NCBI RefSeq assembly: GCF_964355755.1
Contig: NC_092676.1
Coordinates: forward strand, 29,122,288 to 29,186,287
DNA: 64,000 nt
Direction of reading: 5' to 3'
Source of the DNA: Antedon mediterranea
Lineage: Eukaryota > Echinodermata > Crinoidea > Comatulida > Antedonidae
Part shown: positions 7,340-62,610 of the stretch, one piece after another
Layout: every line of letters starts with the position of its first letter
How positions within the stretch are numbered: the first letter of the stretch is position 1
Translations under genes and position numbers: made by a program
The notes under the pieces: generated by a model
Database searches by the model: none
The model's input: the letters and a program-made list of their open reading frames with translations, nothing else
What the model was told of the DNA's origin: nothing

Positions 7340-7470
7340 AAACGTGTGATGTGCCCAAATATGGTAGTGATATTCCCTAATATGATTATATGACATCATC
7401 ATGTCCATTATTATATGGGCACATCACATTTTTCTGTCACATACAGTTTGAACTTGTAGACAGAGTTTTA
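7340..7470. mobile_element. CArG MITE (family A) copy 1, diverged
   Basis: Matches the family core GTGATGTGCCCAAATATGG and the right end TTGTAGACAGAG. One perfect CC(A/T)6GG site remains; the second is split by an insertion. Confidence 0.65.
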
Positions 7471-7924
7471 TACAGCCGTATATTAATATTTCGTTTAAAT
7501 GATTAAGCTATTATCATGCACGAAATCCTGCTGTGCTGTGTGTTGGAAAACTTGTTGAAAGATATTTAAAATATGATAAAACGGTCACAAACTCAGGTAA
7601 CAGGTAATTATTGGAGAAGTCCTCTGCGTGTCCACGGGTGTGCATTTTTGACACTAGATGGTGAGCCCACTTCGCTCGCTCCCCCTCTAGGAAGAAGAAG
7701 ATGGTTCTTGGAATGCTAATACCTCGGGTAAAAATGTTTTAGAAGGACGTTCTCCTTTTGTACGTTTTCTTTCGGTTACCATTATTAAAAATGGTTGACA
7801 TTCGTAAAACTAAACCTACTGTTTCACAGTGTCTTAGATGATTAATAACATTTTAAAGTAGTGTTATTGTTTAGTAGGGCGGAGGTGTACAGGCGGAGTT
7901 CATTTGAGGGAGGTGCTTATTCGA

Positions 7925-62300: not shown

Positions 62301-62610
62301 TAGCCCATATATGTTAGTGATATGCCCAAATATGGTAGTGATATGCCCAAATATGGTAGTGATATGCCCATATATGGTAGTGATATGCCCAAATATGGTA
62401 GTGATATGACATCATTATATCCATTATGGGCACATCACAAGTTTTTGTCACATACTTACTCGTATAACCTCCGGACAGGCATAATGCGGAGAGCCACAAC
62501 TCGTTTCTAAGTACGTCCCTGCAACTTGTAAAGAGGCCATTCCAAAATCAGCCACACGAATGTTGTTCTTTTCATCTAATAGAAGATTCTCTGGTTTTAA
62601 ATCTCTATGA
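41336..62610 (-). CDS. BRSK: BRSK/SAD-type serine/threonine kinase, 3' twelve exons (5' end outside window)
   Basis: AMPK-related kinase of neuronal polarity and synapses, activated by LKB1. Exons, 5' to 3': 62610-62460, 61432-61364, 56166-56020, 50117-50083, 49725-49671, 48227-48115, 45376-45276, 44725-44599, 44118-43849, 42884-42761, 42106-41929, 41577-41336 (TAA). Phase closes throughout; 536 residues are visible and about 140 N-terminal ones are missing, judged from human BRSK. Motifs in order: [10 protein letters not shown] catalytic loop; ADFGMAS (DFG); activation loop [15 protein letters not shown] with the LKB1-target Thr; [16 protein letters not shown]; the end of the kinase domain at [13 protein letters not shown]; a UBA-like segment around [15 protein letters not shown]; the family linker [22 protein letters not shown]; and a KA1-like C-terminus with [24 protein letters not shown] and [11 protein letters not shown]. 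Invertebrates usually have one BRSK, so BRSK1 versus BRSK2 is not assigned. Confidence 0.96.
42179..42375. mobile_element. CArG MITE (family A) copy 13, carrying a nested insertion
   Basis: AAAGCTGTCTTCACTATCAA left, TGTAGACAGAGCTTT right. Both perfect sites are present, CCAAATATGG and CCATATATGG. A 48-base palindrome (42313-42360) interrupts the right end. It lies in a BRSK intron. Confidence 0.9.
42313..42360. mobile_element. Tiny palindromic insertion with 7-8 bp target duplication
   Basis: CATAGAGATATTATAGTG and CACTATAAATATCTCTATG are inverted ends. TGTAGAC occurs on both sides (42306-42312 and 42361-42367), or GTGTAGAC if one terminal base is counted with it. That duplication length fits hAT-type insertion. 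Confidence 0.7.
42696..42757. repeat. Short tandem repeat beside a BRSK donor
   Basis: GGTGTCATAAAATACTT occurs three times with a period of about 17 bases, ending at the donor of exon 42761-42884. Confidence 0.85.
42935..43058. mobile_element. CArG MITE (family A) copy 14
   Basis: TAAGCTCTATCAACACTATC left, AGTATAGACAGAGCTTT right. Perfect CCATATATGG and CCATATTTGG. It lies about 50 bases upstream (5' on the minus strand) of the BRSK exon 42761-42884. Confidence 0.9.
43390..43592 (-). mobile_element. SINE copy lacking its tRNA head
   Basis: Shares CACCGGGGTAACCCCCTA, GGGTTCTTTAAAGT and GTGTACACTGGACCTA with the full element at 7925-8300, in the same orientation, and has an (AAAC/AAAT)n-type tail at 43390-43430. 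The A and B boxes are missing. Confidence 0.75.
43648..43781. mobile_element. CArG MITE (family A) copy 15
   Basis: TCTCTGTCTACACTATCAAA left, TATAGTGTAGACAGAGCTTT right. Perfect CCAAATATGG and CCATATATGG. It lies about 70 bases past the donor of BRSK exon 43849-44118. Confidence 0.9.
44722..44727 (-). promoter_or_regulatory. BRSK: Tandem NAGNAG splice acceptor in BRSK
   Basis: On the minus strand the exon boundary reads TTTCAGCAGCTGAT. Either AG can be used without shifting the frame: the first adds one alanine codon before [10 protein letters not shown], the second omits it. Confidence 0.6.
44771..44912. mobile_element. CArG MITE (family A) copy 16
   Basis: AAAGCTCTGTCTACTTTATG left end; the right end ACCTTGATAGATTC is eroded. 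Perfect CCATATATGG. It lies about 45 bases upstream of BRSK exon 44599-44725. Confidence 0.85.
45531..45955. repeat. 55-bp minisatellite, about 8 units
   Basis: AGTTTGACCGTTACATGAAA starts at 45531, 45586, 45641, 45696, 45751, 45806, 45861 and 45916. Units differ only by single bases (for example CGATTAG versus TGATTAG). Confidence 0.97.
45956..47214. other. BRSK intron stretch, AT-rich, no feature supported
   Basis: Contains a weak LINE-tail-like section ending (AATA)n at about 46350-46375. No exon or named element could be supported. Confidence 0.5.
47215..47450. repeat. Compound tandem repeat
   Basis: A unit of about 110 bases starting TGACTGTAGTGTTAAAACAT occurs twice. It contains shorter 19-20 base repeats of GGGGTGTGTCCTCTTAATA, which continue on both sides of the family B MITE at 47488. 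Confidence 0.85.
47488..47670. mobile_element. MITE family B copy
   Basis: TAAGCTTGGTTCCAACTAGA and GTCGCTAGTGGGAACCACGC ends. Arms hold CGTAACGCAAGGACGT and ACGTCCTTGTGTTGCG, with CCAATGACAAGCG and CTTGTGATTGGTCAA in the middle. It is inserted into the GTGTGTCC repeat. Confidence 0.92.
48735..49597. repeat. 25-bp satellite-like array, about 34 units
   Basis: GTACATGTTTTAGTGTAATT and TATGC repeat across more than 850 bases, with variants in AGTTTAAT, AGTGTAAT, CAAATATG and GTATATG. Larger blocks of about 300 bases also repeat, which suggests two stages of growth. It ends about 75 bases before the BRSK exon at 49671. Confidence 0.97.
50705..50930. repeat. Purine-rich tandem repeat, about 110-bp unit
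   Basis: GAAGTTGAAGAAAGGAA, AATTAGGGAAGGTGGTGTAC and AAAGGAGAGTA recur in order two to three times. The strand is almost pure A/G. Confidence 0.8.
51434..51557. mobile_element. CArG MITE (family A) copy 17
   Basis: TAAAACTCTGTCTACACTAT left, CTAGTTTGATAGTGTAGA right. Perfect CCATATATGG. Confidence 0.88.
53113..53768. repeat. 82-bp minisatellite, 8 units
   Basis: TTGGAGGTACACACCTAATT begins at 53123 and every 82 bases after (53205, 53287, 53369, 53451, 53533, 53615, 53697). Units are nearly identical and contain an AGGTACACACCT near-palindrome and repeated TAGTCACT. Confidence 0.97.
53858..53932. repeat. (AAT)n microsatellite
   Basis: AATAATAAT runs interrupted by AAC and ACT triplets, following the 82-bp array. 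Confidence 0.9.
53933..55289. other. BRSK intron, AT-rich, nothing supported
   Basis: No exon, RNA gene or element could be identified by eye. Confidence 0.5.
55430..55895 (-). repeat. 91-bp minisatellite, 5 units, each with a tRNA-like B box
   Basis: ACATGTGACTGGACTTGAAC starts at 55441, 55532, 55623, 55714 and 55805. On the minus strand each unit reads CCTGGGTTCAAGTCC, which fits the RNA polymerase III B box (GGTTCAANTCC). The flank at 55290-55430 looks like the body of the SINE it came from. Confidence 0.93.
56335..56735. repeat. About 45-bp tandem repeat, 8-9 units
   Basis: AATGTACATTTTCCCACGAT and CACAAAACATTCTTAATAAT repeat. The right-hand units are nearly identical and the left-hand ones diverged. 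Confidence 0.92.
56947..57122. repeat. 16-bp repeat of ATGTTCATATGTTCTT
   Basis: About 11 units. It is open in several frames only because of its composition. Confidence 0.95.
57123..59749. other. BRSK intron, AT-rich, nothing supported
   Basis: A retroelement-like AATAAAATAAAAT tail is seen at 57195-57225. No exon was found. Confidence 0.5.
59750..60650 (-). mobile_element. Non-LTR retrotransposon (LINE) fragment with reverse transcriptase remnant
   Basis: On the minus strand, 60646 to 60061 encodes part of a LINE reverse transcriptase: [36 protein letters not shown], then [17 protein letters not shown] with the first catalytic Asp. The frame shifts near 60360 at a four-base duplication (GATCGATCG). 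The rest of the enzyme, including the FADD-type box, is deleted. A 3' UTR-like part follows with a strong hairpin (59868-59919) and an (AAAC)n tail at 59750-59773. It is a dead, 5'-truncated and internally deleted copy inserted in the BRSK intron in the gene's own orientation. The clade (CR1/Jockey-like) is not certain. Confidence 0.88.
59868..59919. other. 17-bp perfect hairpin in LINE 3' region
   Basis: GGTCAAAATAAGTTGCG at 59868-59884 is repeated inverted at 59903-59919 around an 18-base loop. Some LINEs use a 3' hairpin for recognition by their own reverse transcriptase. Confidence 0.75.
60831..61143. repeat. 24-bp minisatellite, 13 near-identical units
   Basis: ATACAGTACAGTATACTGTG plus TATA repeats without visible change. 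The unit is largely palindromic and eight codons long, so both strands stay open for over 100 codons; this is a composition effect, not evidence of a gene. Confidence 0.98.
62273..62454. mobile_element. CArG MITE (family A) copy 18, core amplified, abutting a BRSK exon
   Basis: Left end TAAAGCTCTGTATACACTAT. The core ATATGCCCAAATATGGTAGT is amplified to about five 21-base units, giving four perfect CC(A/T)6GG sites (CCAAATATGG three times, CCATATATGG once). The right side stops at TTTTTGTCACATA, five bases from the BRSK exon 62460-62610. Confidence 0.85.

Follow-up and report, generated by a model that had tools for sequence, protein, structure and literature searches.

A single family of miniature inverted-repeat transposable elements (MITEs) has placed perfect CArG boxes, that is, matches to the consensus site CC(A/T)6GG of serum response factor (SRF), in large numbers in the genome of the crinoid Antedon mediterranea. 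The family is dense in a stretch of 64,000 nucleotides (G000:C7:29122288-29186287, hereafter the window), which lies within a 354-Mb assembly of 18 contigs. From the structure, number and decay of its copies, we infer that this MITE spreads SRF consensus sites en masse and that the boxes, whose later decay is about as fast as that of the remaining element, are probably passive by-products at most sites.

Within the window, the outer 20-mer of the element's ends, AAGCTCTGTCTACACTATCA, has 18 matches with at most three mismatches where 0.01 are expected, and there are 24 perfect CC(A/T)6GG boxes against 4.5 expected. All but one of these boxes (the exception lies at 31521) fall within 19 full or partial copies of the MITE, 16 of which contain at least one perfect box. 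Copies were detected with nhmmer, both here and in a spread sample of twenty 9-kb stretches on ten contigs (180 kb in total), and perfect boxes were then placed by their coordinates. Box numbers in the window were taken by direct count because an alignment of 33 copies (those of the window together with those of the spread sample) calls boxes split by an inserted base intact, as in the copy at 16455. An initial annotation of this DNA had proposed about 18 copies with palindromic ends and about 23 perfect sites, with at least one site in 16 of 18 copies, in close agreement with these counts. The range it gave, 7340-62454, starts too late, since the copies begin at 6542 with a boxless fragment. 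The copies are as follows, with positions in the window; those after the first are nhmmer placements.

6542-6590, plus strand: left-end fragment, no box
7336-7468, plus strand: copy, one perfect box (7355)
12113-12281, plus strand: copy, one perfect box (12186), 21-bp unit present twice
13683-13811, minus strand: copy, one perfect box (13723)
15346-15490, minus strand: copy, one perfect box (15396)
16455-16600, plus strand: copy with left flank TTA and right flank TAA, no perfect box
20765-20818, plus strand: fragment, one perfect box (20781)
26720-26830, plus strand: copy with exact left end, no perfect box
34139-34293, minus strand: copy, two perfect boxes (34213, 34233)
34464-34589, plus strand: copy, one perfect box (34541)
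34816-34953, plus strand: copy, one perfect box (34895)
38145-38268, minus strand: copy, one perfect box (38194)
39212-39290, minus strand by nhmmer (plus in the 33-copy alignment): fragment, one perfect box (39263)
42178-42374, plus strand: copy, two boxes (42228, 42260), a small palindromic insertion in its right end
42936-43056, minus strand: copy, two perfect boxes (42982, 43014)
43646-43779, plus strand: copy, two perfect boxes (43689, 43718)
44772-44900, minus strand: copy, one perfect box (44814)
51435-51564, minus strand: copy, one perfect box (51485)
62275-62454, plus strand: copy with five 21-bp units (62303-62408), four perfect boxes (62326, 62347, 62368, 62389)

The element has the hallmarks of a MITE, being short, too short to encode a transposase, bounded by inverted ends and present in high copy number. 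Its ends read AGCTCTGTCTACAC, with AG as the first bases, and the inverted repeats extend inward from AGCTCTGTCTACACTATCA through GTGATGTGCCCAwATATGG, which is common to both arms. Each CArG box forms the inner end of one arm, and the boxes therefore come in pairs because the element is palindromic. Between the two boxes lies TGACATCATCATGT, which includes the TGACATCA-like core that had been annotated there. In one arm only, CCCAAATATGGTAGTGATATG forms a direct repeat of 21 bp with one box per unit. The boxes are thus paired as annotated, with a number per copy that varies because one of them sits in this tandem unit.

This variation was scored in an anchored set of 120 copies from contigs C1-C5, each with one well-kept arm: 60 were located by 49 bases of one arm matched exactly (220 such matches genome-wide) and 60 by a 47-base match to the other (269 genome-wide). 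Two of them, L085 and L086, have common flanks and derive from one insertion. Scored by alignment, the 21-bp unit is absent from 2 of the 120 copies, single in 42 and double in 65, while five copies have three units, three have four, two have five and one has seven. From end to end, the anchored copies listed with both ends measure 114-185 bp. A long hairpin is predicted for the window copy at 42178-42374 and its surroundings (z -10.7), as expected from the palindromic structure. Its right end is interrupted by a nested palindromic insertion of ~48 bp (CATAGAG...CTCTATG) bordered on both sides by a repeat of ~7-8 bp (TGTAGAC), a second, tiny transposon-like element inside the MITE.

The family is abundant well beyond the window. 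The exact 20-mer end has 11,075 matches in the genome, part of which sit in tandem arrays, and none for a control pattern with reversed letters, the kind of control also used for the two genome-wide box counts given next. The spread sample contains 14 copies, and extrapolation from it gives ~27,600 for the whole genome (Poisson range 15,000-46,000); the density in the window is ~4 times that of the spread sample. Perfect CArG boxes number 66,066 genome-wide against 20,116 for the control, and in the family's context, TGCCC(W)6GG (W being A or T), there are 24,847 matches against 252, a scale that bears out the initial annotation of a widely spread MITE with paired perfect boxes. Boxes with TGC on both sides enter this last count twice (1 of 16 in the window, none of 7 in the spread sample). 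It also misses family boxes that lack TGC, as 7 of the 23 perfect boxes in the spread sample have TGC and 10 of the 23 fall within MITE copies. The A/T core is the family's own or a one-base variant of it in 93 of the 100 context matches listed, all on contig C1, and differs in the other 7, of which 4 come from one tandem array (L159). The genome-wide box and context counts, together with the proportion of boxes within copies in the spread sample (10/23), put the contribution of this one MITE family at roughly a third or more of all perfect CArG boxes in the genome. Outside this genome, a scan of viral contigs gave no matches to the family.

Well-preserved copies are unevenly spread along contigs C2-C4. 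Among the 49-base matches listed, none falls in C2 15.4-35.2 Mb, C3 6.8-32.2 Mb or C4 4.6-21.0 Mb, and the other-arm matches listed, which reach C4 4.9 Mb, include one in the C2 stretch and six in the C3 stretch. Matches to Harbinger-type transposases are common in these same stretches. The MITE end has also seeded tandem arrays on C1 (L154, C1:410800-412450; L155, C1:1256950-1257750; L156 and L157, C1:1406500-1409000), with units of 42 bp (the outer repeat only), 134 bp (a degenerated MITE with broken boxes) and 92 bp. In two further arrays, a CArG-type box is repeated with no MITE ends in the fetched stretch: CCATATTTGG in five 38-bp units of L153 (C1:89150-89550) and CCAATTAAGG in four units of L159 (C1:1195560-1195860).

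Are the boxes kept better than the rest of the element? SRF is expected to hold the CC and GG of the box most firmly. In the 33-copy alignment, the consensus base at G/C positions is kept in 253/286 cases within boxes (0.885) and in 989/1112 outside them (0.889; p=0.83), and at A/T positions in 417/433 (0.963) and 2009/2121 (0.947; p=0.18). For the anchored set, we compared columns outside the anchors, with poly-A/T runs set aside. The G/C columns of box 1 are kept less well than those outside (0.824 vs 0.895, p=0.012) and those of box 2 equally well (0.900 vs 0.895, p=0.69); the A/T columns of box 1 likewise equal those outside (0.958 vs 0.947, p=0.40). Perfect boxes survive in 56/117 cases for box 2, 65/118 for the first unit and 95/216 for all units, and other 10-mers with four G/C keep their class in 33-60% of cases. 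In the younger half of the 33 copies, G/C positions are numerically less often kept in boxes (127/149) than outside (497/543).

Three observations weigh against equal decay. In the older half of the 33 copies, box G/C positions are numerically more often kept than those outside (120/131 vs 466/540), so that the picture by age is mixed. In the anchored set, the A/T columns of box 2 are kept better (0.977 vs 0.947, p=0.0005), with gaps commoner there. Genome-wide, with 10-base anchors on each side of box 2 or of a control segment, box 2 keeps CC(W)6GG in 2312/3493 copies (66%) while the control segment keeps its own class in 2391/4051 (59%). It should be noted that the control segment contains a dinucleotide prone to mutation, which differs in 24 of the 100 listed copies and is poorly kept in another comparison too. 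This can explain the gap of 7 points, although it is an argument rather than a test. The initial annotation had described arms that diverge around conserved sites, implying that the boxes diverge less. The data do not support this: slower decay of box bases than of neighbouring element bases was absent at G/C positions in both the 33 copies and the anchored set, and the genome-wide rates can be reconciled with equal decay if the mutable control is allowed for. On the whole, the boxes appear not to be kept preferentially and to decay at about the rate of the rest of the element, and nothing in the sequence indicates that they are maintained for a function.

The 21-bp units bear on the same question. 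A unit with a linked double change to CTT, CTTAAATATGG, occurs in 18/97 later units, 1/76 first units and 3/41 only units. As this change breaks the box and was nevertheless copied on, a box-broken unit has spread.

These data argue against the view that the element owes its retention or success to an SRF response which its boxes confer on neighbouring genes. Such rewiring, raised as a possibility in the initial annotation, would accord with the perfect boxes in 16 of the 19 window copies and with the position of some copies: among exons recognised by Pfam, copies adjoin a BRSK-type KA1 exon (41927-42199) and others are no more than 3 kb away from an A_deaminase_N exon (23205-23549). However, the G/C positions of the boxes decay like the rest and box-broken units have multiplied, and we consider rewiring extremely unlikely as an account of the family, while noting that selection on a few copies would escape these averages. 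The seeding of SRF-like sites by the MITE is real; their upkeep or a rewiring finds no support.

A different function is that the boxes serve the element itself. The transposase or a partner protein would then bind the subterminal 19-bp motif GTGATRTGCCCAWATATGG, which is inverted between the arms and tandemly repeated on one side, and the match to the SRF consensus would be a coincidence inside a longer motif specific to the element. The motif common to both arms is indeed longer than the CArG box and its unit is repeated 0-7 times, and we take subterminal repeats to be usual in DNA transposons. Both PIF/Harbinger and Nuwa elements carry a gene for a DNA-binding partner of the Myb/SANT type (PMC4482050). 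On the other hand, the CTT unit, which lacks the CC, was copied widely, so that the CC part is at least not essential in later units; 44 of the 120 anchored copies have only 0-1 units; and no autonomous element with the 19-bp motif was found among the 14 of 150 Harbinger-type matches that were examined. We therefore regard a role for the boxes in transposition as possible but rather doubtful, and prefer to see them as by-products.

A hint at the kind of transposase comes from the insertion flanks, which follow the pattern TCTWA-element-TWAGA. Three bases outside the element there is a T in 108/120 left flanks of the anchored set and in 42/47 ends of the window and spread-sample copies; a C precedes that T in 50/120 and 20/47 of them, respectively, a preference and not a rule. 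TWA borders both sides in 54 of the 74 anchored copies with two usable ends (46 of the 120 have no usable second end), and the 20 without TWA on one side were left out of the comparison that follows. By eye, these flanks looked like the 3-bp TWA target-site duplication of PIF/Harbinger elements. A duplication predicts near-total agreement of the middle W between the two sides, and the W agrees in only 32 of the 54 copies, which speaks against such a duplication. The left and right flanks are TAA/TAA in 15 copies, TTA/TTA in 17, TAA/TTA in 16 and TTA/TAA in 6 (Fisher p=0.16). The probability of at most 32 agreements is 3e-9 if 90% of the copies should agree, and that of at least 32 is 0.07 at the chance level of 48%, which the observed agreement exceeds slightly. 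Agreement is similarly partial with a strict right end (11/20 anchored copies) and in the window and spread stretches (6 of 9 pairs, two of which have a common right end). The flanks thus reflect either insertion without duplication, as in the Spy group, or a reassortment of left and right ends, for example by hairpin repair. Among the matches listed in a search for empty sites, in which the joined flanks of 68 copies were compared with 316,814 local bases, no usable one was present; three matches spanned a junction, one over an AAT microsatellite, one of L079, which is followed by another MITE copy, to itself, and a 30-bp match with E=0.001.

Comparison with described transposons gives a mixed picture. 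According to parts of PMC4482050, members of the PHIS superfamily insert at TWA (PIF/Harbinger) or at TNA between C and G (NuwaII, C/TNA/G). Like them, our MITE has inverted repeats and T-W-A at most insertion boundaries, and like NuwaII it prefers C and G outside T-W-A. Unlike PIF/Harbinger, the middle W of its flanks often disagrees, and unlike most NuwaII ends, which start with GG in the same excerpts of PMC4482050, its ends start with AG. Pangu, a PHIS member considered because of the AG ends, makes ANT duplications (PMC4482050, in part), a target that does not fit TWA. With the Spy group (PMC4482050 and PMC11304231, in excerpts), the MITE has in common a short A/T palindrome as target and flanks compatible with no duplication (T-W/W-A), whereas Spy inserts in AAATTT and the flanks here read CTW and WAG.

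The genome contains at least 150 matches to Harbinger-type transposases (DDE_Tnp_4, PF13359). We examined 14 of the 150, each with ~1.6 kb per side: at 12 loci, the best match to the 19-base MITE end has at least five mismatches, and the other two (L150, L160) contain a whole MITE copy, so that no autonomous partner with MITE ends was found near these 14. This result and the poor agreement of the W both count against our assignment, and the latter weakens the link to PHIS in particular. We nevertheless propose that the MITE is a non-autonomous cut-and-paste element, mostly ~115-185 bp long, each arm of which ends in a CArG box, and that a transposase supplied in trans, which by its target preference would be of PHIS type, spread it to some tens of thousands of copies. 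The inner segment of one arm, the 21-bp direct repeat, has grown and shrunk, giving a varying number of boxes. Every copy delivers ready-made SRF consensus sites that mutate afterwards at about the element-wide rate, and individual copies may have been co-opted.

Whether the delivered sites could attract SRF depends on the factor and on the fit of the sites. There are three matches to PF00319 in the genome, which we read as two genes. Judged by eye, contig C10 gives an SRF-like translation (GRVKIKMEFIDNKLRRYTTFSKRKTGIMKKAYELSTLTGTQVMLLVASETGHVYTFATRKLQPMI, from two exons) and contig C11 a MEF2-like one. Box 2 is embedded in TGCCCATATATGGACA, and we take TGNCCATATATGGNCA to be near the SRF optimum. 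The extended form TGNCC(W)6GGNCA, presumably also close to that optimum, is present in 7 of the 24 window boxes and once in the 180 kb, always within MITE copies.

Given such sites, SRF could bind many of the tens of thousands available, so that free SRF falls while neighbouring genes stay unregulated and no copy is constrained. The large number of sites, the SRF-like gene and the extended boxes would suit such a sink. Many consensus matches in animal genomes, however, go unoccupied, and we consider a sink improbable. A review raises the possibility that E2F is diluted by motifs remote from genes (PMC12595863). A bolder version holds that SRF faces ~20,000 or more near-ideal sites on one transposon and that the element profits from this, for example if SRF keeps copies open during transposition, and adds an undescribed PHIS-like group that inserts at CTW/WAG without duplication; this combination we regard as very unlikely.

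In kind, the element is an ordinary MITE, and the multiplication of motifs by transposons is already known. In Brassicaceae, ~85% of the genomic copies of the 10-bp E2F motif lie in transposons, mainly MITEs (Henaff et al. 2014, as cited in part of PMC12595863), and the same excerpts describe E2F-carrying MITEs of the hAT, PIF/Harbinger and MULE kinds, with most motifs far from genes. Our MITE resembles these in multiplying a transcription-factor motif. It differs in that one family in an animal genome supplies roughly a third or more of a MADS-type motif, which here lies partly inside a variable 21-bp repeat. Binding of E2Fa is reported for Brassicaceae (PMC12595863, in part), whereas the present sites are candidates by sequence. 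In titles and abstract openings of the literature on CArG boxes, SRF and transposable elements, or on CCATATATGG with SRF, we found no description of such a family.

What distinguishes the family is its scale, for a MADS-type motif spread by a single family, and its odd insertion flanks. If SRF binds some of the sites, one transposon family would set the background against which a deeply conserved regulator searches for its true targets, and the dilution of transcription factors by transposons would become testable outside plants. If it does not, the many matched intact and broken boxes would form a natural assay of what SRF needs beyond a perfect motif. Any motif-based search for SRF targets in this species should mask the family, whose boxes would otherwise mislead it.

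Apart from the MITE copies, the window contains a cluster of rhodopsin-type G-protein-coupled receptor genes or gene parts on the minus strand (1932-6283). Two of its frames (4208-5053 and 5402-6283) match 7tm_1, and a third (1932-2777) has a start nearly identical to that of 4208-5053. Further tandem arrays lie at 53112-53773 (82-bp units), 55433-55891 (91-bp units) and 48738-49595 (25-bp units).

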